DNA of 47,344 nucleotides from a virus. The number at the start of each line of letters is the position of its first letter. Positions within the stretch are counted from its first letter, which is position 1. The translations under genes were made by a program, and so were the position numbers. Shown piece after piece: positions 621 through 46,456 of the stretch. The notes beneath the pieces were generated by a model. It did not search any database, was not told the DNA's origin, and saw nothing but the letters and a program-made list of their open reading frames with translations. The DNA lies in IMG/VR virus record IMGVR_UViG_3300006923_002034, positions 1 to 47,344 of that record; one strand, given 5' to 3'.

Positions 621-2270
621 ATGAATCCTATGATCCCGGCCACCGAGGCCAACCCGATGGCGGCGAGCCCAATGGTGTCGCATATACCGCCAGAGGCAGA
701 CCAGGCTGCGATGAGGCTTGATTTCCTGTTTATGCATATCGTGCAGCATCAGGGTACGTTTGATCTTGCATATTCGCAGTTAGAGCCAGACATGCTGGCT
801 AATAATCGTGAGATGCATTACCGGCATGTCTGGCGATGCATCAAGGCACACTGGGATGAGTTCGGTCGCATACCTGCGTACGAATCCCTGTGCACAGCGG
901 CACTCCCCGCCGTTGCTGAGGATAGCATCGCTAAGATGAGCAAAGCGGTCAAAGACATGATCATCGAGCAAACGGAGACGTTGCTTGCTTTCATGTACGC
1001 CCCTGAGCATAACGCAGAGAATCTTGAGGTAGAATTTGCTACGGCCATCTTACGCGAGCTCTTGATCGACAGAGGTCCTGAGCTTGAGATTCGTCGTGCC
1101 GTGGCGAGCGCAGCTACCAGCATGATTACTAACCTGCCAGATATTGTGCAGCGAGCCCAGAAGCGTATCGAGGACATCACGTCACTGGGTACGATACAGG
1201 AAGAGACCACTACCGTACCTAAGGTATGGGAACAGGTAGCTGTTCCTCGTGTACCTTGTGGTGTTGAATGGGTCGATACAATCATGGGCGGAGGTGCGGA
1301 GCCTGGTAACTGTATGGTCATCATGGGGCCGACAGGTGGCGGTAAAACCACAACCTCTATGCAAATCGCCGTCACAGCAGCAGCACTACAACCGATCGAC
1401 CCGAACCCTGGGCTGGTTGTGTTCATTAGTTACGAAGATGACATGCGTATGATTCAGATTCGAGCCACATCGTGTGGTGCGAATGTGTTGAAGGACTCAC
1501 TTCGTGATGCTAAATCAGGCGTGAGTTTCAGTTCTGTTGGGAATTTGAAGCCATACGAACAGAGCTTGTATGGTGCAGGTATCCCGAAGCACGAGCGGCT
1601 TGGTGAGATAGAACGCATCAAGATGGCCGAGCCGTGGTTGGATAAGTACCTGCATCTGGTTGACTTTCATGATCCCGCTAAAGGTGGTCGTGGTGGTATT
1701 CCAGAGGTCAGGGCACGCCTTATGGCCCTCCAAGAGAAACATGGCCTGCCAATCAAAACAGTTGTCTTAGACTGGGCGGGTACGCTGGTAACCAACTACC
1801 TGCAAGGTATCGGTATCTCGGCGGACGGCTCCAGGATGTCGCTCGAGCTGCAAGACCTTGTACGGAAGTGTAAGCATGAGCTGGGTATCCCTTTCGGGTG
1901 TACTGTATGGATACCGCACCAGTTGACAGGTAAGTGCAATAAAGCATCACCGTCGACATTCCCGCATCACGCAGATGCTCAATGGTGTAGCACGTTCTCC
2001 GATCACGCGACGTATGCGTTTGTACTGGGGACTAAAGACAAAGAGCATAGTATCGTGCAATTCGGGGCCACTAAGACCCGACACGGTGAGACACCTGGCC
2101 CAATCATCCTTAAGGTGGACGGGGCATTCTGTCGTATGGTCGACGTTACCAAACAATTCTCTGTTGATCGTATCTCTGGACGCTTGGTGCCCCAGAAAGA
2201 CGCAGCAAAATTCCATGTTAGCGATGCGGCTATTGAGGCTGTATCGTCGGATGTAAATAGTGATAGATGA
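621..2270 (+). CDS. Replicative DNA helicase, DnaB/RecA-fold family
   Basis: Likely the ring helicase that unwinds DNA at the phage fork using NTP hydrolysis. The N-terminal ~210 residues look like the helical DnaB N-domain and linker. The RecA-like core carries a Walker A loop GPTGGGKTT at residues 236-244, a following FISYEDD segment (motif 1a-like, catalytic Glu position) and a hydrophobic Walker B strand VVLDWAG near residue 385. The 549-residue length suits phage DnaB-type helicases. AGGAG lies 5-8 bases before the ATG. The stop overlaps the start of the primase gene (ATGA), so helicase and primase are translationally coupled, as expected for partners at the fork. A RadA/KaiC-like ATPase is the main alternative, but the position beside primase and polymerase argues for the replicative helicase. 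Confidence 0.85.
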   Translation: MNPMIPATEANPMAASPMVSHIPPEADQAAMRLDFLFMHIVQHQGTFDLAYSQLEPDMLANNREMHYRHVWRCIKAHWDEFGRIPAYESLCTAALPAVAEDSIAKMSKAVKDMIIEQTETLLAFMYAPEHNAENLEVEFATAILRELLIDRGPELEIRRAVASAATSMITNLPDIVQRAQKRIEDITSLGTIQEETTTVPKVWEQVAVPRVPCGVEWVDTIMGGGAEPGNCMVIMGPTGGGKTTTSMQIAVTAAALQPIDPNPGLVVFISYEDDMRMIQIRATSCGANVLKDSLRDAKSGVSFSSVGNLKPYEQSLYGAGIPKHERLGEIERIKMAEPWLDKYLHLVDFHDPAKGGRGGIPEVRARLMALQEKHGLPIKTVVLDWAGTLVTNYLQGIGISADGSRMSLELQDLVRKCKHELGIPFGCTVWIPHQLTGKCNKASPSTFPHHADAQWCSTFSDHATYAFVLGTKDKEHSIVQFGATKTRHGETPGPIILKVDGAFCRMVDVTKQFSVDRISGRLVPQKDAAKFHVSDAAIEAVSSDVNSDR

Positions 2271-4378
2271 ATAGCTCACAACTAACTATGGCGTCTTTGG
2301 ATAATCTCGCACCGTCGCCGGTGTTGAACCCAACGCTGTACGATCGCATGGTCAAAATGTATGGCAGCGTGATCGTAGCTAAGCAGGGTGAGGCCATGTA
2401 CGGCGGTGGACTGGACTTCGATGGTATGCGTACAAGCTACAAACCGTTGACGTCTGGGGAGTACTACAGAATAAATTGTTTTGCTGGTGAAACGCTAGTA
2501 GCAACAAAGTATGGCGATAAGCCTATTTCTGCGTTAGTAGGGACGGCTGAGCTACTGGTGCCTAATGCGAAGGGGCTCGGGAGCTGGCGATCCGTAGAGG
2601 TTCGTAGTTTCGGTAAGCAGCGGCTGTTACGCTTAACTATTAAGAGACATGGTACTGTTCGAAACATTCGCGTGACTGCAGATCATCGTTGGCTGTTAAG
2701 TGGCGGTAATGGTTGTTATCAAGAAGCGACTACATCCTCACTTGTGCAGGGGGATAAGTTAGCCTCTTGTTTTGCACGCAAGCTTGTTAGTTATGGGTCA
2801 CATATGCCAGCCGTGTCGCCATTTGGCGTCGCACGTGGTTTTGTGTTTGGTGACGGGAGCACCGCTACCGATAGGCCGCAGCGCCCTGCTTGGGTGGATC
2901 TACATGGCGAGAAGGATAAAGCATTGCTACCGTTTTTCTCAATGTGTTGTGCGGTTGACGTAGGTCCGGCTGTTGTGCGTATAGGCGGGCTACCTCGACA
3001 GTGGAAATCGGTACCGTATGAAGTTGTGGATCTTACTACGCTGTGCGGCTGGCTGGCTGGTTACTTCGCTGCTGACGGGTCCGTCTCGAAGCCGGGTACG
3101 CAAGCGGTCCTCGGTTCGGCTAATCTAGAGGGATTGCAGTTTGCTCGCGGAGTGTGTTATCAGTTAGGAATTCGCATTTCTCCAGTGCGAAAGATAAAAC
3201 GATCATCTAATGGCTGTGTACCTAATGCGTGTGATTTCCCGTATTACGAGTTCTCTTTTCCGGCGTCTGATGTCCCTATTGATTTTTGGATCATCGCGGA
3301 ACATAGACGGCGAGTGCAAGCAGCCGTCGACCGCAATGTAAGTACGGTGCGGGCTTGGTGGACAGTTGAAGTCGTTGAGGACGACGGAGACGAGGATGAG
3401 GTGTTTTGTGCTATAGTGCCGGGTGATGAGAAATTTACACTGGCTAATAACTTACTAACACGTAACTGCCCATTCTGCCTTAAGCGGGGCGCGGTGGATA
3501 CTAAGCATCGTCTGTGGATCAATCACAGGTGGGGTGTCGGGCTTGACCCCGACAATGAGTTCTACGATCCGAACGATAAGTTCTGGTGGATGGCTGTGTG
3601 CTACAACGAGAACTGTCTGGATAACCCGGAGTATCGCAGGACGTTACGTACGTCGCTGTACGCAGGTGTTGGGCGTGAGAATCACGGGGAGGTTGTTAAA
3701 ATTCTTCCCGGTAAGACAGACTCAGGAGCTCTCGGGGTGGTTGACTACCCGGGGAACTGCCAACTGCTTAATACGCTGCCGCATGACCACAAGGCCTACC
3801 AGTACATGCTGGGCCGCGGGTTATCGCCGGAGATGCTTGGCGAGGAGTACGGTGTGGCGTATTGCCACGAGTCGCTTATGACACCGGTAGCCGCGGCTAA
3901 GATCATCATCCCCATCCACATGGACGGCAAGATGGTGAGCTGGCAGGCCCGACCGCCGTACGACATCGATTGGAAGGCTGCTCGTCAGCCAAAGTATTAC
4001 AACTGCCCGGGGACCAACAAGCGACTGATGCTATACGGGGCCCAGCAGTCAATGGATATGAAGTTCTGCATTGTTGTAGAGGGCGTGACAGATGTTTGGG
4101 CTATTGGCGCCGGTGCGGTGTCTGTGCTCGGTAAGGTCATGTCAATGCAACAAGCAGTCGTCATTAATAAGCTATGGCCTGTAGCCATACTAGTGCTCGA
4201 CGCCGGCACGGCTGTCGAGAGTAATAAGATGCGTGACCTACTCACGCACGGGGGTACACGTGTCGTCACGGTGGAGATGCCAGAGGGCTTAGACCCGGCA
4301 TCCATCGATCGTGACTATCTGTTTGATTTGCTCTACGGGGCAGCTTCGACGCAAGGAGTTGATTTACTTACTTTATGA
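2267..4378 (+). CDS. DNA primase (zinc ribbon + Toprim) carrying an intein
   Basis: Makes RNA primers for DNA synthesis. The precursor is 703 residues; removing the intein (residues 71-400) leaves a primase of about 373 residues. The spliced protein has a zinc ribbon made of CPFC (residues 401-404) and CYNENC about 45 residues later, then a Toprim domain with VVEGVTD (Glu605, Asp609) and VLDAG (Asp645). The second Asp of the usual DxD is Gly here. The intein sits exactly before the first zinc-ligand cysteine, so the unspliced protein should lack a complete zinc finger and primase activity should depend on splicing. The start ATG overlaps the helicase stop, and the stop overlaps the polymerase start. 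Confidence 0.85.
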   Translation: MNSSQLTMASLDNLAPSPVLNPTLYDRMVKMYGSVIVAKQGEAMYGGGLDFDGMRTSYKPLTSGEYYRINCFAGETLVATKYGDKPISALVGTAELLVPNAKGLGSWRSVEVRSFGKQRLLRLTIKRHGTVRNIRVTADHRWLLSGGNGCYQEATTSSLVQGDKLASCFARKLVSYGSHMPAVSPFGVARGFVFGDGSTATDRPQRPAWVDLHGEKDKALLPFFSMCCAVDVGPAVVRIGGLPRQWKSVPYEVVDLTTLCGWLAGYFAADGSVSKPGTQAVLGSANLEGLQFARGVCYQLGIRISPVRKIKRSSNGCVPNACDFPYYEFSFPASDVPIDFWIIAEHRRRVQAAVDRNVSTVRAWWTVEVVEDDGDEDEVFCAIVPGDEKFTLANNLLTRNCPFCLKRGAVDTKHRLWINHRWGVGLDPDNEFYDPNDKFWWMAVCYNENCLDNPEYRRTLRTSLYAGVGRENHGEVVKILPGKTDSGALGVVDYPGNCQLLNTLPHDHKAYQYMLGRGLSPEMLGEEYGVAYCHESLMTPVAAAKIIIPIHMDGKMVSWQARPPYDIDWKAARQPKYYNCPGTNKRLMLYGAQQSMDMKFCIVVEGVTDVWAIGAGAVSVLGKVMSMQQAVVINKLWPVAILVLDAGTAVESNKMRDLLTHGGTRVVTVEMPEGLDPASIDRDYLFDLLYGAASTQGVDLLTL
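2477..3466 (+). mobile_element. Intein with LAGLIDADG homing endonuclease inside the primase gene
   Basis: In-frame insertion of 330 residues. Block A starts with Cys71 (CFAGETLVATKYGD). Block B is VTADHRW, with the TxxH signature. The C-terminal blocks read VFCAIVPGDEKFTLANNLL then TRN, followed by Cys401 as the +1 nucleophile. Between them are two LAGLIDADG-type helices: ARGFVFGDG at residues 189-197 and LAGYFAADG at 263-271, so a dodecapeptide homing nuclease is present and may be active. The penultimate residue before the terminal Asn is Arg, not the usual His, which is tolerated in some inteins. The +1 Cys doubles as a zinc ligand of the host protein. Boundaries come from the splice motifs and from restoration of CPFC spacing. 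Confidence 0.9.
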
Positions 4379-7300: not shown

Positions 7301-7602
7301 AACTGGGGTATCGCATAGTGTTGCAAATTCATGACGCTGTAGTCCTCGAGGTACCCTTGCGGAGCGTGGCGGAGGTAGCGGATATTGTACTTCCAAGTTG
7401 TATGGTTCAAAAAGTGTCTTTCAGGTCATGCGATTGGGACGGGGTTCCGTATAGTGACTCACCCACGTACCGATTTGGTATCGACATGGACCTAGCGACC
7501 AGGTGGGGTGTGACCCCTACCTGGGATGAATGTGACGAGATGGGTATCGACAGGAAGTTCGGGAAGCCACCTAAGGCTGCGAAGATTCTTGTAAGTAGTT
7601 AG
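4375..7602 (+). CDS. Family A DNA polymerase with fused N-terminal UDG-like domain and 3'-5' exonuclease
   Basis: The replicative polymerase, 1075 residues, in three parts. Residues ~100-300 look like a family 4-type uracil-DNA glycosylase (VMVVGKIPTTEE, GRTLSGPAGRQL, YVCNLVRW, a late FILCLGAEATKA strand). Residues ~325-515 are a DEDDy proofreading exonuclease (DGE at 336-338, Asp407, YGGKD with Tyr506 and Asp510). The polymerase domain has motif A LLEADYKGAEL (Asp790), motif B RVAAKNIIFGVGYG (Arg856, Lys860, Phe864, Tyr868) and motif C QIHDAVVLEV (His986, Asp987). Motif C has Ala988 where Pol I enzymes normally have Glu. The glycosylase part could be a catalytically dead structural domain; in the place of the usual GEAPG loop it has GKIPT. 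ATG overlaps the primase stop. Confidence 0.9.
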   Translation: MITDLNRDDLEAIFRGDEKNSHTETYPMYPLTAPGMPPAGVNFIAHARHLGDEEPYLIEGKGKDKKVLSAGFHLQCLYLRCLYSSDFDLPIKLKGKTEVVRIVPGRLWGMPPEGPKHLSDKYCAEFNAKRVMVVGKIPTTEEVATGRTLSGPAGRQLRETLESLGMTDSELNDWYVCNLVRWQNLNPNSSALAQAWVKDCLPLLHQEMRLCAPDFILCLGAEATKAVCGPANSVNNMIGRYIEKEIPLQLNADEEPEIHTAKVMAVMNPSAVLRTTELYPQFEATLRNFVKLVNGEEFATSSDETITIQYIYKERDLAELVDHIIAQPGLKKIGVDGEWHGQHPGEPGSYLRTIQISHHGEFAAVIVLTAQGGETAFAPNKERAIHHLNRLLDRDDVQIGGSFFSADLPWLEYNGLHIAHRFCVPPNVEDIRGGNYAGGFDVALAHHAYNETGDFKLEVMGTRLCGADRWDVKLQEWKRDYLHKHKMKDEELEGYGECPEEVLLPYGGKDAAYTRQLMDKHCELLDADKHGNDCWVPFHLSMMAFPAFNEMGTTGVKIDLERIDTLTDLFQEIREERLAELRQAINWPGFNPRSSQQCVEFLFGAQYSTKIDKDGERVSVAPEGATTLDLQPIKSTGKGKPWGWVLSRNEQDKYSPSTDKEVCGILGARHPLARSLRDVRLIDQVLKSVFRPPVMTKTEGPELTKDGYRIYKGGIAKYCCYDFRVRSTFQQVKETGRASSARPPLQNISKRREDDYARILGSRYMCPIRSFIVSNTDTEYGEPTVLLEADYKGAELLGMAVMSRDETMLDHCTRANLSDDDPNQYDIHSNIAVQAFRLDCAPNKKGLSAIGKKGMRVAAKNIIFGVGYGRTAEACARQCQEEGAHISEAEAQVIINTIFATYPGIPALQEALRARVHSPGWIRNCFGRLRRCIRTADRAAMGELERQFLNFPFQSMVADAVSIALFHLYNHPRKAELGYRIVLQIHDAVVLEVPLRSVAEVADIVLPSCMVQKVSFRSCDWDGVPYSDSPTYRFGIDMDLATRWGVTPTWDECDEMGIDRKFGKPPKAAKILVSS

Positions 7603-7972
7603 CAGCTGTTAGGCATAACTCTGCTGAGTCTTTTAGTCCGCCTATTGCCCGGTTGCACGGGTCGCACAGCAGGCCGCGAACGCGTCCAGTGTCGTGGTTG
7701 TGGTCTACACACAGCCTTCGCCGTAGTGGCGGGGCCTTGCATATTGCACATGCCCCGTTTTGGCGTGATAGCTGTTGATCGTATTCATCCATTGTGATGC
7801 CGTATCGTCGATGCATTCTTGTGGCAGCTCTTTGAGCTTTATTTCGACCGCGGGAGCGAGTATTACGGCAAAGAGCACATGCTACCGTTCGGCCACTTTT
7901 GCGGCTTTTATCTTTATGGAATTCAGCCAGTGGCTTGTTTTTATTGCACTTGCTACACTGTTTGGTAGTCAT
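7571..7972 (-). CDS. HNH nuclease, recombination endonuclease VII family
   Basis: A 133-residue zinc-binding HNH nuclease on the opposite strand to almost everything else. The N-terminus has CSKCNKNKPLAEFHK and a second CALC pair. The core is CAICKAPP then VDHNHDTGRVRGLLCDPCN, the classic endonuclease VII-like ββα-metal signature with the DHNH catalytic residues. The ATG at 7972 follows GGAGG by five bases; an in-frame GTG four codons upstream overlaps that site and is less likely. The gene runs tail to tail into the polymerase gene, sharing 32 bases with it. Such genes next to replication genes are often free-standing homing endonucleases, but a Holliday-junction or packaging nuclease role cannot be excluded. 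Confidence 0.85.
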   Translation of the reverse strand: MTTKQCSKCNKNKPLAEFHKDKSRKSGRTVACALCRNTRSRGRNKAQRAATRMHRRYGITMDEYDQQLSRQNGACAICKAPPLRRRLCVDHNHDTGRVRGLLCDPCNRAIGGLKDSAELCLTAANYLQESSQP

Positions 7973-8040
7973 GAGAGCCTCCACGAAGGTTTGACTGATT
8001 AGAGCTGGAGGACAGGTTACAGCCTGCCTTCAGTTCGCTT

Positions 8041-16607: not shown

Positions 16608-17091
16608 AGAAAAACGTTTGGAAGATGTACTTCGTACCTCGCGGGAGCTTCTGGATGAGGCTGCGAGTGCAAGGCAGATGGTGCGGTTTTCGCAGTCGCT
16701 CAACCGTATTGATGATGCGTATGAGTTGACTATTCGGGTGACGGCTGACGATCATGTTGTGTTGCGAGATGTTGATGGGAATAGCTTATCTGCGCCTCGT
16801 CTAACTGATGCAACACGGGCGTTAGAGACGCGGTTAGCTGTGTCGCTCACAATAGCCATTGAGGCAGCGTTGGAGCAGTTTGCTGAGACTGTGAACGACG
16901 AGTATGCAGCTGCTTTGTATGCTGCTGCTGGTGAGGTAAAACCTAGCAGCGACATACAGACTACGCGAACGCCCAGGAAGATACGCCTACCCCCTGAGGA
17001 GCAAGTGGCCGCAATAGTTGAGGGCACAGCAGGCAATACACCCAGCGGGCCAGAAGACCCGGCACCACCAGGAAGGGAGATACCATTCTAA
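16594..17091 (+). CDS. Hypothetical protein carrying the PRKIRL motif, 165 aa
   Basis: A helical N-terminal region (RLEDVLRTSRELLDEAASARQMV), a β-rich middle (YELTIRVTADDHVVLRDVDG), a long alanine-rich helix, then a disordered tail. The tail contains RTPRKIRLPPEE near residue 127, the first of four copies of this motif in the window. GGAGGG lies six bases before the ATG. Its stop overlaps the deformylase start. Confidence 0.7.
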   Translation: MERDEEKRLEDVLRTSRELLDEAASARQMVRFSQSLNRIDDAYELTIRVTADDHVVLRDVDGNSLSAPRLTDATRALETRLAVSLTIAIEAALEQFAETVNDEYAAALYAAAGEVKPSSDIQTTRTPRKIRLPPEEQVAAIVEGTAGNTPSGPEDPAPPGREIPF

Positions 17092-17540
17092 TGGAGATTC
17101 TTAAGTACCCCCATGAGGCGTTGTGTAAGGTATGCACACCCGTGGATATCGTGACGCCGCAGCTAAAAGAACAACTCAGCGAAATGCTGGCGTTGATGTA
17201 CAAGTTCGACGGTGTCGGGCTTGCCGGTTCCCAGGTAGGCATACTTCAGCGAGTGTTGGTAATGAACAGCACCGCTGATCCTGCAAATACGAATGATGAG
17301 TATGTGCTCATCAATCCAATTATCTACCGTAACTTTGGTGGTGTATCTCGACAACGTGAAGGTTGTCTGAGCATGCCTGGTGTTGGTGCTTCAGTCACAC
17401 GCTCGAAGAAGGTTAGGTTCGAGGCGTGGACGCTGGAGGGCAAACTTATACAGAAAACGTGGTCTGGTATGAAAGCCAGAGTACTTCAACACGAGCTCGA
17501 GCATTTGAACGGAATTACGATAATTGACCATGCTAAATAA
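17091..17540 (+). CDS. def: Peptide deformylase
   Basis: Removes the formyl group from N-terminal methionine of new bacterial-type proteins. All three family motifs are present: GVGLAGSQ at 41-48 (canonical GxGLAAxQ, one Ala to Gly change), EGCLS at 90-94 with the metal-binding Cys92, and QHELEH at 133-138 with the two His ligands and catalytic Glu. At 149 residues it is shorter than host enzymes (usually 165-190) and lacks the C-terminal helix, as is common for phage-encoded deformylases. Phage copies may help translation of phage proteins late in infection. The ATG overlaps the previous stop (TAATG). Confidence 0.93.
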   Translation: MEILKYPHEALCKVCTPVDIVTPQLKEQLSEMLALMYKFDGVGLAGSQVGILQRVLVMNSTADPANTNDEYVLINPIIYRNFGGVSRQREGCLSMPGVGASVTRSKKVRFEAWTLEGKLIQKTWSGMKARVLQHELEHLNGITIIDHAK

Positions 17541-39853: not shown

Positions 39854-40840
39854 ATGTCTATTGGTGAATCACCAAAGAAGAAACCAGCGAAACCCGCCAA
39901 GGCCGTCGGTAAGGCCAAGGCACCTGCGGGTAAAACCACCCCTGGTGTAGAGGCGAAGAACAAAGACAAGAAAATCCTGATCGACCGTGTCGATCTTGAG
40001 TGGATTGCTCCATCTTGTCACTGCCCTCAAATCCTGATGAACGCTGCTGGACCTTTCACCCAGGCGGTCATCCAGCACCGCGAGAACGCAGGGGAGAACA
40101 AGGCGAAGAAGAAGAAACAACCACGTGATACTATGGCGTCGTATATCGACGCCATGCATGTGGCTGTCGGGAAGTACCATCCCGACTGGCTCCCGTACAA
40201 CATCTACGGGTTCCCCAGTGTTGCATGGGCTAAGGCCATGGCGACACTGTCGCATCGCCTGGGCAAGACCCAGTACGCGATCGACATTCTACAGTTCATC
40301 TTTGTGCATGGTTGCTACCGCGGGCTTATCCCGCTGTTCAACCAACCAGTGGATCTTACACATCCGCTGATCACGCCTGCTGACGTACTCAAGGAAGTAC
40401 CAGCAGCTAAACGCAAGGGCGTGATCGAGAACAACGCTGACTGGGACAAGGCACTCCTGAAGGTGCTCAAGGCTCAGCCAGATATCTATGCTCGCCCCAC
40501 CATGCAGCAAGATATTACTTACGTTGGTGGTGGCTCGTCACGCAAAGCTATGATGGCGTACCGAGCTCGCTTTGATGATGTTTATTTCTGCTTGCCCATC
40601 CAGCACTGGGTGGAGCGACTGGATCGCAGTGCTGTCGTCAACCTTGTCCACGCTGTGGGCCAGATGATGGGCGTTGGTGCGTGGCGCTTGGAGCGTCACG
40701 GGATCCATGGTGGTTTTCATATCGTTGGTGATATCAAGACGATCGATATCGCGTCTGATCCGCTGGAAACTATGCAGGCCCGCTTTACCCCGGATACGAA
40801 GTATCTTCTCGATGCCGCTAAGAAGTCCGTGGGTGGATAA
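39854..40840 (+). CDS. Hypothetical protein with Lys/Pro/Ala-rich N-terminus, 328 aa
   Basis: The first ~40 residues are Lys/Ala/Pro-rich and disordered (KKKPAKPAKAVGKAKAPAGK), likely to bind nucleic acid. The rest is globular (SYIDAMHVAVGKYHPDWLPYN, YAIDILQFIFVHGCYRGLIPL) with an unrecognised fold. Its 5' leader is shared with the gene at 43289, so the two are probably regulated together. The GAAGGAG site precedes the ATG. Confidence 0.72.
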   Translation: MSIGESPKKKPAKPAKAVGKAKAPAGKTTPGVEAKNKDKKILIDRVDLEWIAPSCHCPQILMNAAGPFTQAVIQHRENAGENKAKKKKQPRDTMASYIDAMHVAVGKYHPDWLPYNIYGFPSVAWAKAMATLSHRLGKTQYAIDILQFIFVHGCYRGLIPLFNQPVDLTHPLITPADVLKEVPAAKRKGVIENNADWDKALLKVLKAQPDIYARPTMQQDITYVGGGSSRKAMMAYRARFDDVYFCLPIQHWVERLDRSAVVNLVHAVGQMMGVGAWRLERHGIHGGFHIVGDIKTIDIASDPLETMQARFTPDTKYLLDAAKKSVGG

Positions 40841-40859: not shown

Positions 40860-41480
40860 ATGGCGACGACAACCTCGACGCCACGTCAGCGTCTGGATCC
40901 GCGATACTGTCCGGTGGATGGTTCGCGGATGTCAGATGAACAAGTTCAACGATGGGGACCGTTCCTTGCAGAGCATGCGGGCGAGACCTACGACGAACTA
41001 TTAGCAGCAGCAAAACGGCGAGGATCTTCAGTTCGACGTGACCTGGAGACCAACGCTGACGCTGCTTTACTGCGGGTCCAGATGGATCAACTGCAGTATT
41101 TCACACGTAGTGTGGATATCGTGTATACGATTCGCGAGCCTGATGGCGAGGAACGTAATATGCGACATCGGGCATTCGTGCCTATCACGTATACGATCGT
41201 GGAAGCTGAAGATGAAGACAGCGAACCGACTGAGCATGTGTCGCCACCCGGTCAACGGGCGTGCCGTGCAGAAGGTCGAGTCTCGCGTGTCGTTAATGCG
41301 TATGACGCTATTTCGAGTCCCGAGTCAAAGGCGCAGCTTTTGGATCGTGTGTCACGTGATCATGCGGCGTGTTTGGCGAAGATTCAGCGTACAACTGACA
41401 TGTACGGCGATATAACGGATGCTGTGCTATCTGCACGATTACGGCGTTCGTTGCGTGAGCATTTCGCTACCGATGATTAA
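40860..41480 (+). CDS. Hypothetical protein upstream of the hairpin array, 206 aa
   Basis: Unrecognised; α/β with a charged, helical C-terminus (LLDRVSRDHAACLAKIQRTTD, LSARLRRSLREHF). GAAAGGAG precedes the ATG. The pentamer/hairpin array begins directly at its stop codon, so the array is probably transcribed as its 3' UTR. Confidence 0.7.
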   Translation: MATTTSTPRQRLDPRYCPVDGSRMSDEQVQRWGPFLAEHAGETYDELLAAAKRRGSSVRRDLETNADAALLRVQMDQLQYFTRSVDIVYTIREPDGEERNMRHRAFVPITYTIVEAEDEDSEPTEHVSPPGQRACRAEGRVSRVVNAYDAISSPESKAQLLDRVSRDHAACLAKIQRTTDMYGDITDAVLSARLRRSLREHFATDD

Positions 41481-42632
41481 TGGAATGTGCCGTGGTGTGA
41501 CGTTTTGTTACCTACTGCCCTGTCCTGCCCCATCCAGGTCTAACGGTCTGGATGGGGATTGCTTCGTGTGATGTGGTGATGTGTGCTGTTTTATCGTGTC
41601 CTGTGTTGCTCTGTTTTGCCCCTTCCAAGTTTCACCGCTTGGCTGGGGATTGCTTGGTGAATTGTGACGTCATGTGGTGATCTGTGCTGCTTGATAGTCT
41701 CCTGTCCTGCCCCATCCAGGTTTAACGGTCTGGCTGGGGATTGCTTTGTGTTGCGTAATGCTCTGCGGTGTGTTGCAGTTCTGTGTTCTGTTCTGTAGTT
41801 GCCCCATCCAGGTCTAACGGTCTGGCTGGGGATTGCTTACTGCTCTGGCGGGTATTGTTTTGCAGTGTTTGGCCTCGTCCTGCACTGGCGACACTTGTCC
41901 TGTTCTGCCATTGCCCCGTCCAGGTCTAGCGGTCTGGACGGGGATTGCTTTCTGCGGCGTGATGTTTTGTGGAGGGATGTCCGGGGATGTTGTGCCCTGT
42001 GATTTGATTGCCCCATCCAGGTCTAGCGGTCTGGCTGGGGATTGCTTAATGTGATGTTTTGTACTGTCCTGGCGTGTCCTATCCTGTAATGTACTGCCCC
42101 ATCCAAGTTTCACCGCTTGGCTGGGGATTGCTTAATGACCTGTGATGTAATGTTTTGGCTTGTGTTGCCTTGTGCTGCGATTGCCCCGTCCAAGTTTCAC
42201 CGCTTGGCTGGGGATTGCTTTCTGTGATGTATTGTGATGCCGGGTAACGCCCTGTATTGCCCTGTCATTGCCCCTTCCAGGTCTAACGGTCTGGCTGGGG
42301 ATTGCTTTTTGTTTTGCGTCAAAGTGACATGTGCTGTAGTGTGACGTTTTGTATTGTGATTGCCCCATCCAGGTCTAACGGTCTGGCTGGGGATTGCTTA
42401 TCGTAGTGTACGGTTCGGTCGTGCCGTGTCTGTTGTTCCCGTGTGATGTCCGACGATTGCCCCATCCAAGTTTCACCGCTTGGCTGGGGATTGCTTGCTG
42501 TCTTGTTCTGTAGGATTTTGTAGTCTTAACAGGGCATGTGTACTGCCCCATCCAAGTTTCACCACTTGGCTGGGGATTGTTTAATGCACTGCTCTGTTTT
42601 GCGGAGTATTATATTGGTGTGTGTAGTCGTAG
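41481..42632 (+). repeat. Hairpin-repeat array, part 1: twelve 39-bp hairpin units in pentamer-phased spacers
   Basis: Units start at 41526, 41617, 41708, 41800, 41912, 42009, 42095, 42182, 42269, 42361, 42458 and 42544. Each is TGCCCC, a stem-loop, then GGGGATTGCTT (the last has GTTT). Two loop classes alternate irregularly: CCAG-GTCTAACGGT-CTGG and CCAAG-TTTCACCG-CTTGG. The stems co-vary (CCAG/CTGG versus CCAAG/CTTGG; CCCCATCC/GGATGGGG versus CCCCGTCC/GGACGGGG). Spacers of 47-73 bases consist of pentamers with TG at positions 3-4. No ORF on either strand is credible here. The phasing starts right after the stop of the 206-residue gene and runs to the terminator at 42633. Confidence 0.92.
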
Positions 42633-42666
42633 CCCTGACTGGTTCGCTGGTCAGGGTTTTTCTTTT
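42633..42666 (+). terminator. Terminator ending array part 1
   Basis: CCCTGAC / GTCAGGG stem with a ten-base loop, followed by TTTTTCTTTT. Closely similar to the hairpin at 43202 that ends part 2. Both directly follow TAG at the end of the pentamer tract. Confidence 0.88.
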
Positions 42667-42682
42667 ACTCAGGAGGTGTGGT

Positions 42683-42904
42683 ATGCCACCACTTAAAGAA
42701 CCTAAAGTCCGTACAACGATCTGCTTGTCGGCGGATCTGAAGCGACGTATGGACGCGGCAGCGTTAAGGGTTAACTGGTCGGCGACAGCCGCCGAGGCTT
42801 TCGAAGCCACATTAGCTGCGCTTGTTACAGAAAAGGAAGATAAAGCAACAGCTATGCAGTTAATATCAACCCCCGCAGGCACGGTCTGCTGGGCATCGAT
42901 GTAG
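42683..42904 (+). CDS. Ribbon-helix-helix (CopG-like) protein inside the array
   Basis: 73 residues. VRTTICLSADLKRRMDAAAL followed by a second helix with the NWSATAAEAFEATLAAL segment fits the β-strand, helix, helix layout of RHH DNA-binding proteins, which act as dimers on short palindromes or direct repeats. CAGGAGGTG is five bases before the ATG. It lies between the array terminator and hairpin unit 13, so its mRNA carries array part 2 as a 3' UTR. It may regulate nearby promoters or bind the array itself, which is inference. Confidence 0.75.
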   Translation: MPPLKEPKVRTTICLSADLKRRMDAAALRVNWSATAAEAFEATLAALVTEKEDKATAMQLISTPAGTVCWASM

Positions 42905-43201
42905 TTTGCCCCATCCAAGTCTCACCGCTTGGTTGGGGATTGCTTTAAGTTTTGTGCTGTCTTGTATTGAACTGAAATGTTCTGCCCTGTTTTGTTATGC
43001 CCCTTCCAAGTTTCACCGCTTGGCTGGGGATTGCTTAATGCATTGATCTGCGCTGTGCGGTACTGTTTTGCTATGCCCTGCTATGTGGATTGTTGTGTTG
43101 CTATTGCCCCATCCAGGTCTGACGGTCTGGATGGGGATTGCTTTGTGTAATGGCCTGCTCGGGCGTGTTATGTCTACAGTTGTTCTGTTCTGTTGTGTTA
43201 T
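42905..43201 (+). repeat. Hairpin-repeat array, part 2: three more units in pentamer-phased spacers
   Basis: Units start at 42907 (stem end changed to CTTGGTTGGGG), 42998 and 43105 (loop GTCTGACGGT, perfect CCCCATCC/GGATGGGG pairing). Spacers of 52 and 68 bases show the same NNTGN phase. The tract begins at the stop codon of the RHH gene and continues as pentamers after the last unit up to the terminator-like hairpin at 43202. Confidence 0.9.
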
Positions 43202-43234
43202 AGCCCTGGCCGGGTTTCTGGTCAGGGCTTTATT
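43202..43234 (+). terminator. Terminator-like hairpin ending array part 2
   Basis: AGCCCTGGCC / GGTCAGGGCT stem, loop GGGTTTCT, then TTATT. Related in sequence to the terminator at 42633. The T-run is weak. Confidence 0.65.
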
Positions 43235-45806: not shown

Positions 45807-45976
45807 CTTCGTTGGCAGGGTGGTCTGCCTTAACAACCACGCTACTAGCACAGCAGCCGCAATGGTGCGGTTCCCGCCTGTTAACAGCGGGGGGACGAAT
45901 GACCAGAGTGCTGTGAGGGGTCCTTAGGAGGTGGCCCCACTATGCTGTTTCTTTTCTCTTACCAACGGAGGTGACC
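45807..45976 (+). promoter_or_regulatory. Structured leader with short coupled leader ORF
   Basis: Hairpins GGCAG/CTGCC (about 45814-45829), CCGCA-ATGG-TGCGG, and a GGGGTCC...GGCCCC pairing that would cover TTAGGAGG. Next comes a mini-ORF at 45942-45974. Hiding of the first ribosome binding site in a stem suggests translational control. Confidence 0.4.
45942..45974 (+). CDS. Possible leader peptide, 10 aa
   Basis: ATG with TTAGGAGG upstream encodes MLFLFSYQRR and stops inside the ribosome binding site of the next gene, three bases before its ATG. Translation of the mini-ORF would couple to, or gate, the downstream gene. The spacing from AGGAGG to ATG is long (11 bases), so it is only a candidate. 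Confidence 0.3.
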   Translation: MLFLFSYQRR

Positions 45977-46456
45977 ATGAGTTACCGATGTGAAGGCTGC
46001 GGGTGGGTATGGCCCGCAGTTATCGAGTGCTGCCCAAAGCGGCCTCGGGCTCTGGAGTCCCCAGAGTCGATCTTCGGGAGGGTGTTGCATCGCCTTCCTA
46101 AAGGTGCCCAGCTTGCATCTGGCGGGTTGCTGGATGCAAGAGGGGTGTCGGACGTTGACGTCATTGTCATCGACGCGGCACAGGATGAGCGTTGTTTCAC
46201 GATTGGCGGTTACGATCGGCCGATCAACGTGATGGTCTCATCCAACCCCGATGCCTTGCGTTCTGTGAGGCATCGGGAGATTGAGCTCAAGCTAGAGAGG
46301 ACATATCCCTCGCTGGCTGAGCGTGCTCGCATAGCGAAAGCTGGCGGGCTAAGCACCGAAGCCGCATGGTCAGCGGTGCTAGGTCTCCAGGGTTGCCCCT
46401 ACGAGGCCATGTTGGACACCGATGTCGTGATGTACGCGGCGTCGGTATTACCCTAA
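45977..46456 (+). CDS. Possible nucleotidyltransferase-like protein with N-terminal zinc motif, 159 aa
   Basis: N-terminus CEGCGWVWP...CCPKRP looks like a small zinc ribbon. LASGGLLDARGVSDVDVIVID (about residues 47-67) resembles the nucleotidyltransferase motif (G[GS]...DxD) with Asp-Val-Asp. The C-terminus contains LQGCPYEAML, related to the gene at 46789. GGAGG precedes the ATG. The enzymatic assignment is tentative. Confidence 0.5.
   Translation: MSYRCEGCGWVWPAVIECCPKRPRALESPESIFGRVLHRLPKGAQLASGGLLDARGVSDVDVIVIDAAQDERCFTIGGYDRPINVMVSSNPDALRSVRHREIELKLERTYPSLAERARIAKAGGLSTEAAWSAVLGLQGCPYEAMLDTDVVMYAASVLP

Follow-up and report, generated by a model that had tools for sequence, protein, structure and literature searches.

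The 47,344-nucleotide stretch of viral DNA analysed here (the window; positions 1 to 47,344 of IMG/VR record IMGVR_UViG_3300006923_002034) very probably includes the VIPR locus of a large phage of marine type, in which 16 guide RNAs (vrRNAs) form an array. The VIPR system (Viral Interference Programmable Repeat), described in April 2026 in phage SUSP1 and a Pseudomonas fulva prophage (PMC13142463, preprint), is RNA-guided, uses a noncontiguous code and may predate CRISPR. According to this preprint, Vipr is a RAMP ancestor of CRISPR backbones and has an RRM core together with a G-rich loop, a vrRNA consists of 9-16 YNNGG repeats and a structured 3' tail, the NN pairs recognise double-stranded DNA with one base skipped, and the system is used against competing phages (PMC13142463). 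The same text gives seven VIPR types with "GGY/NN motifs, or a related consensus" (fig. S17 cited there), and places one tract upstream and three tracts downstream of the Vipr gene in SUSP1. The locus in the window is a strongly diverged UGY variant of this already known kind, and it extends the range of VIPR to a marine-type phage that is very diverged, has 16 guides and departs in its fixed triplet. The locus differs from published VIPR in its UGY triplet, its large diverged Vipr and its 16-tract array, although the triplet may already be among the related consensus of fig. S17.

The features of the locus are listed below, all on the + strand. The tracts are putative vrRNA tracts, assigned by TG phase and pentamer information unless another basis is given, and the hairpins are assigned by stem pairing.

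39854 to 40840 (+): vipr-like gene, 328 aa, predicted RAMP fold, G-rich motif close to the C terminus (VNLVHAVGQMMGVGAWRLERHGIHGG); phrog_4652, AlphaFold/Foldseek
40860 to 41480 (+): ORF separating vipr from the array, candidate for the accessory (vap) gene; by position only
41479 to 41526 (+): tract 1, 9 pentamers NNTGY
41527 to 41564 (+): hairpin tail 1
41565 to 41617 (+): tract 2
41618 to 41655 (+): hairpin tail 2
41656 to 41708 (+): tract 3
41709 to 41746 (+): hairpin tail 3
41747 to 41800 (+): tract 4
41801 to 41838 (+): hairpin tail 4
41839 to 41912 (+): tract 5, the longest, 15 pentamers
41913 to 41950 (+): hairpin tail 5
41951 to 42009 (+): tract 6
42010 to 42047 (+): hairpin tail 6
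42048 to 42095 (+): tract 7
42096 to 42133 (+): hairpin tail 7
42134 to 42182 (+): tract 8, query of the target search
42183 to 42220 (+): hairpin tail 8
42221 to 42269 (+): tract 9
42270 to 42307 (+): hairpin tail 9
42308 to 42361 (+): tract 10
42362 to 42399 (+): hairpin tail 10
42400 to 42458 (+): tract 11
42459 to 42496 (+): hairpin tail 11
42497 to 42544 (+): tract 12
42545 to 42582 (+): hairpin tail 12
42583 to 42629 (+): tract 13, terminator in place of tail; TG phase
42631 to 42658 (+): intrinsic terminator, 12-pair stem then TTTCTTTT; terminator inspection
42683 to 42904 (+): 73-aa ORF inside the array, possible ribbon-helix-helix DNA-binding protein, second accessory candidate; sequence pattern, uncertain
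42908 to 42945 (+): hairpin 13, right after the ORF stop, without its own tract
42946 to 42998 (+): tract 14
42999 to 43036 (+): hairpin tail 14
43037 to 43105 (+): tract 15, 14 pentamers
43106 to 43143 (+): hairpin tail 15
43144 to 43201 (+): tract 16, terminator at end; TG phase
43202 to 43229 (+): intrinsic terminator of the second half; terminator inspection

The array consists of 16 NNTGY tracts of 9-15 pentamers and 15 near-identical hairpins, and is divided into two terminator-bounded halves by the 73-aa ORF. TG lies at one phase modulo 5 in all 16 tracts (41479-43201), and 121 of the 168 TGs are located at index 2 when the phase is counted from where the preceding hairpin ends; for tract 1, the common phase is seen after it is set on the AATGG at 41479. 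TG pairs at lag 5 number 88, as compared with 29.8 expected from 1000 dinucleotide shuffles (z = 12.4). The z values are 11.6, 10.1 and 10.2 at lags 10, 15 and 20 respectively, and TG pairs are depleted at lag 4 (z = -5.4) and lag 6 (z = -6.0). A five-base TG phase between the hairpins had been proposed in a first-pass annotation of this DNA, together with a comparison against shuffled sequence, and the excess at lag 5 bears it out. Both of its in-phase tallies are correct (nine of nine pentamers in the spacer at 42134 and nine of ten in that at 41565), and its 13 spacer lengths are exact and all fall in two adjacent classes modulo 5; the hairpin boundaries used here make each spacer one base longer. 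The full number is, however, 16 tracts rather than 13, because the phasing sets in at the stop codon of ORF 40860-41480, where tract 1 starts (41479), and ends at the terminators at 42631 and 43202. No run of six in-phase TGs is found outside the array in the 153-kb sister contig.

The pentamer unit is N-N-T-G-Y, with 0.01, 0.01, 1.02, 1.13 and 0.59 bits at the five positions (n = 172 pentamers). The T and G are retained at 81-84%, and the NN positions are at saturation, because each of them holds only 0.01 bits. The strand had also been said to avoid A. A is indeed scarce in the strand, but this scarcity is a property of the fixed triplet alone, since the A content at the two free positions (23%) equals the window average (23.4%).

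The hairpins form an invariable structured element 3' of the tracts; 14 of the 16 tracts end with a covarying hairpin tail and the other two with a terminator. Each hairpin has an 11-pair stem, in which one pair is exchanged on both sides from G-C to A-U in seven of the 15 copies. The stem cells are paired at 98.2%, as compared with at most 56% for slid versions. The earlier suggestion that hairpins are interspersed in the RNA is right. An Rfam search of the array gives no CRISPR or other RNA family up to E 1, and no hammerhead ribozyme between the tracts. A BLASTN search of the array against phage records gives no match. A DNA-pattern search with the hairpin finds only two contigs with identical arrays; these are other IMG/VR contigs, 153 kb and 30 kb in length, that carry the same locus unchanged. 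Diversification of the NN positions by DGR-type adenine mutagenesis was also considered, and is rejected because the tail adenines are conserved.

The mechanism proposed for the locus is modelled on the SUSP1 work in its oligomerisation, the guide function of NN, the one-base skip, the targets and the biological role. Vipr (39854-40840), a small RAMP protein, would oligomerise along each tract with one subunit per pentamer, coating the RNA and gripping the fixed UGY triplet in such a way that the NN pair of each pentamer is left exposed. The target would be double-stranded DNA, spelled out by the NN pairs of a tract in their order with one base skipped after each pair, and silencing of the target gene would repress a rival phage or satellite. 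The vrRNA 3' tail corresponds to the hairpin that follows a tract. The first-pass annotation had assumed that each protein subunit contacts a single triplet within every five nucleotides, which we judge to be right by analogy, with a RAMP/Cas7-type Vipr as the probable partner. It had regarded the two preceding bases as a free linker, whereas the analogy with published VIPR suggests that they are guide bases.

When the guide of tract 8 is searched with a one-base skip, two matches are obtained, both in related contigs, as compared with about 1.3 expected by chance according to our own estimate. The match site looks intergenic, and the other guides give no match in the two contigs matched by tract 8 or elsewhere among the sequences compared. 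These matches are not evidence of a target. The log-likelihood per pair of NN usage is -2.762 for codon positions 1-2, -2.822 for positions 2-3 and -2.883 for positions 3-1 (both strands mixed), and a plain composition model fits as well as codon positions 1-2 (-2.764). The fit to codon positions 1-2 is weakly consistent with the published wobble-skip and a guide role. A Vipr-vrRNA complex that does not use NN for guiding in the UGY lineage, but in which the RNA acts as a scaffold or as a decoy that counters, for instance, a RAMP/CRISPR complex of the host or of a rival, is improbable. It would accord with guides for which no target is found and with the strong divergence of the Vipr in the window, but the NN pairs are fully randomised among the 16 copies while the tails are nearly identical, as is expected for guides, and the preference of NN usage for codon positions 1-2 over 2-3 or 3-1 points weakly in the same direction.

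The protein encoded by 39854-40840 matches phrog_4652 with an E value of 0.0028 alone and of 1.6e-4 in the 153-kb sister contig. Its AlphaFold model, built on an alignment that took in relatives, is of moderate confidence (pLDDT 72), and the 50 matches listed in a Foldseek search of the PDB with this model are all CRISPR RAMP (Csm3/Cas7) or CRISPR-complex chains, with a best E value of 1.2e-4. A typical family member is modelled with a pLDDT of 94 and likewise gives CRISPR RAMPs or complexes throughout the 50 matches listed. The family profile of phrog_4652, which is annotated as of function unknown, matches PDB 36pp 'SUSP1 Vipr protein' with an E value of 4.7e-51. The protein of the window is at most 22% identical to the other Viprs compared; phmmer with this protein alone does not find 36pp, and its single-sequence hhalign match is weak. 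We regard it as a distant, diverged Vipr and a phrog_4652 member, because a weak phrog_4652 match and a predicted RAMP-type model are combined with an array directly downstream in the same orientation.

The ORFs 40860-41480 and 42683-42904 are the candidates for the vap position, and both are without a family match. The former gives no Pfam, PHROG or NCBIfam match and no homology to the HWR family of locus L107. Weak TALE-repeat matches to this ORF sum to a best total E value of 7e-12, a sum probably raised by the repetitive nature of the targets, and no single stretch passes the threshold. The latter matches CcdA with an E value of 0.081, which is below the cut-off.

The array had first been compared to the binding register of TRAP (MtrB), a ring protein. 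An 11-mer ring that binds the UGY triplets in an mRNA leader or tail and controls transcription or translation, with the NN pairs as linkers, would explain the five-nucleotide register, the presence of about 10 triplets per tract and the nearby terminators. This reading is very unlikely, and the TRAP-like assignment is wrong: the TRAP family PF02081 is found in none of six phages (the window phage and five relatives), although the B. subtilis control is positive, the protein linked to the arrays is a RAMP in 95+ loci, and a single switch needs no 16 tandem tracts with their own tails. TRAP shares with the array one triplet per five nucleotides, but it belongs to another protein family and reads (G/U)AG. 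The RNA polymerase pausing signal G-10 Y-1 G+1 is also compatible with a period-5 TG. Pausing was considered, and was set aside once the arrays proved to be linked to vipr.

The association between the arrays and the Vipr family was obtained in both directions. When viral contigs are scanned for eight TGs at period 5, simple satellites are found, together with non-satellite arrays with their own hairpins in many unrelated phages; among the loci from a similar scan of bacterial and archaeal genomes there is no multi-run array. The genes beside the arrays have in common a protein with a G-rich C-terminal motif, which is PHROG 4652. This family occurs in 17 of the 21 contigs with arrays, as compared with one of the 29 satellite-only contigs (Fisher p = 1e-8), and one of the four negative array contigs (that of L090) does encode a homolog, later found as L443. 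When loci are fetched by protein homology alone and scanned for any dinucleotide at any period, a period-5 array is found in 65 of 80 loci in one set and 31 of 54 in the other, mostly at a distance of at most a few hundred bases from the gene, while periods 4, 7, 8 and 11 are found in at most four loci per set. The register is kept in relatives; spacing without regard to multiples of five was looked for among them and was not seen. On SUSP1, the array finder locates a single tract upstream of the gene and three more downstream, which is the published layout, indicating that the method reproduces the published RNAs.

Pentamer tracts adjoin a phrog_4652-type 'hypothetical protein' in Felixounavirus wV8 (gp95, triplet GGT), Vibrio phage 1.266.O (GCA), Listonella phage phiHSIC (GCA) and Mycobacterium phage LittleE (GGC), and tracts are also found in Pseudomonas and Gordonia phages. 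A plain period-5 scan combined with phrog_4652 thus recovers VIPR loci whose genes are entered as hypothetical and whose arrays are left as blank intergenic DNA. The triplet on the gene's own strand is constant per protein clade (GCA, GGY, or ACA with some AUA), and 30 changes of triplet are required on the Vipr tree, as compared with 70 when the labels are shuffled. The UGY triplet is found in the window and in L048; the window protein, L100 and L048 have branches whose length prevents their placement on this tree. The dependence of the triplet on the protein clade opens two testable questions: which triplet is read by which RAMP residues, and whether sequence can predict orthogonal VIPR systems. 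The chances are even that recognition relies on an evolvable triplet code, changing together with Vipr (GGY, GCA, ACA/AUA, UGY), the window representing a separate deep UGY lineage with one of the larger arrays seen and possibly a different skip rule.

Some relatives depart from this pattern in detail. The triplet appears to be AUA in L406, L407, L447 and L449, which are ACA-clade Vipr relatives, and AGC in L373 and GGA in L372, which are possible further triplet codes. The contig IMGVR_UViG_3300047175_000261 (L060/L128), in which phrog_4652 is present, has TGA-type pentamers between terminator-like hairpins in three places and on different strands, their orientation relative to the vipr gene being mixed. 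L101 and L107 have another tail architecture, with the pentamer tract placed in the loop of a long stem whose arms are, for example, GCATAAGCACGGG / CCCGTGCTTATGC. In LittleE (L462, 2486-3648), vipr and a partner gene are opposite in strand to the tail genes and adjoin the tape measure gene, in the manner of an inserted cassette. The vipr gene of GU169904.1 (Staphylococcus phage SA1) is 99.5% identical to the Felixounavirus one, and this record may be mislabelled or chimeric.

An element acting at the DNA level was first suggested by the finding that TG is often antisense to the flanking genes. Such an element would be an iteron-bearing origin or partition site, recognised by a ribbon-helix-helix-like protein encoded within the array, for which the possible RHH ORF 42683-42904 (CcdA, below the cut-off) would be a candidate. 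It was dropped and is very improbable: once the triplet is read on the vipr strand, the orientation relative to the vipr gene is constant within clades, the triplet changes with the Vipr clade, the tails covary as RNA stems, and the RHH ORF is not seen as a common gene in the flanks examined, so that an RHH partition site is not supported. A functionless, degenerate pentanucleotide satellite produced by slippage is hardly credible, because, although many period-5 satellites turn up in scans, NN is saturated while TG is retained, the arrays follow one protein family through unrelated phages, and multi-run arrays occur in the viral but not in the bacterial-genome scan loci.

The assignment as a VIPR locus is consistent with the comparison to the published system. 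In both cases, a phage encodes a Vipr of the RAMP family, tandem pentamer RNAs with free NN flank its gene, the tracts are of similar size (9-15 units here and 9-16 published), several vrRNAs with a structured 3' tail are present per array, a short gene is adjacent, and the sense orientation and the order of tract and then tail agree. The differences are that the fixed triplet is UGY instead of GGY, that the Vipr has 328 aa instead of about 200, that the 16 tracts fall into two halves, each closed by a terminator and separated by a small ORF, that the tail is a plain 11-pair hairpin instead of the pseudoknot of SUSP1, and that the candidate accessory genes have no family match. The array also differs from a hammerhead-interspersed VIPR array.

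Csm3/Cas7 proteins oligomerise on the guide RNA in a fixed register. The type III CRISPR backbone formed by them has the same fold as the Vipr models, but it uses a six-nucleotide register and contiguous guides, whereas the register here is of five bases, without Cas genes or CRISPR repeats. A CRISPR array is composed of identical repeats and contiguous, unique spacers and is accompanied by cas genes, whereas the spacers here contain a fixed triplet every five bases.

Several other genes of the window were noted, the first three by eye. The region 2267-4378 encodes a DnaG/primase-like protein with a seeming intein that has a homing-endonuclease part (CFAGETLVATKYG...LLTRNC). An ORF at 7571-7984 on the - strand resembles a recombination endonuclease VII or HNH protein and overlaps the end of the DNA polymerase gene on the opposite strand. 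The region 17091-17540 likely encodes a phage peptide deformylase (GVGLAGSQVG, EGCLSMPG, QHELEHLNG), and 45971-46456 encodes a Pfam DUF4269 protein (E 4e-7).
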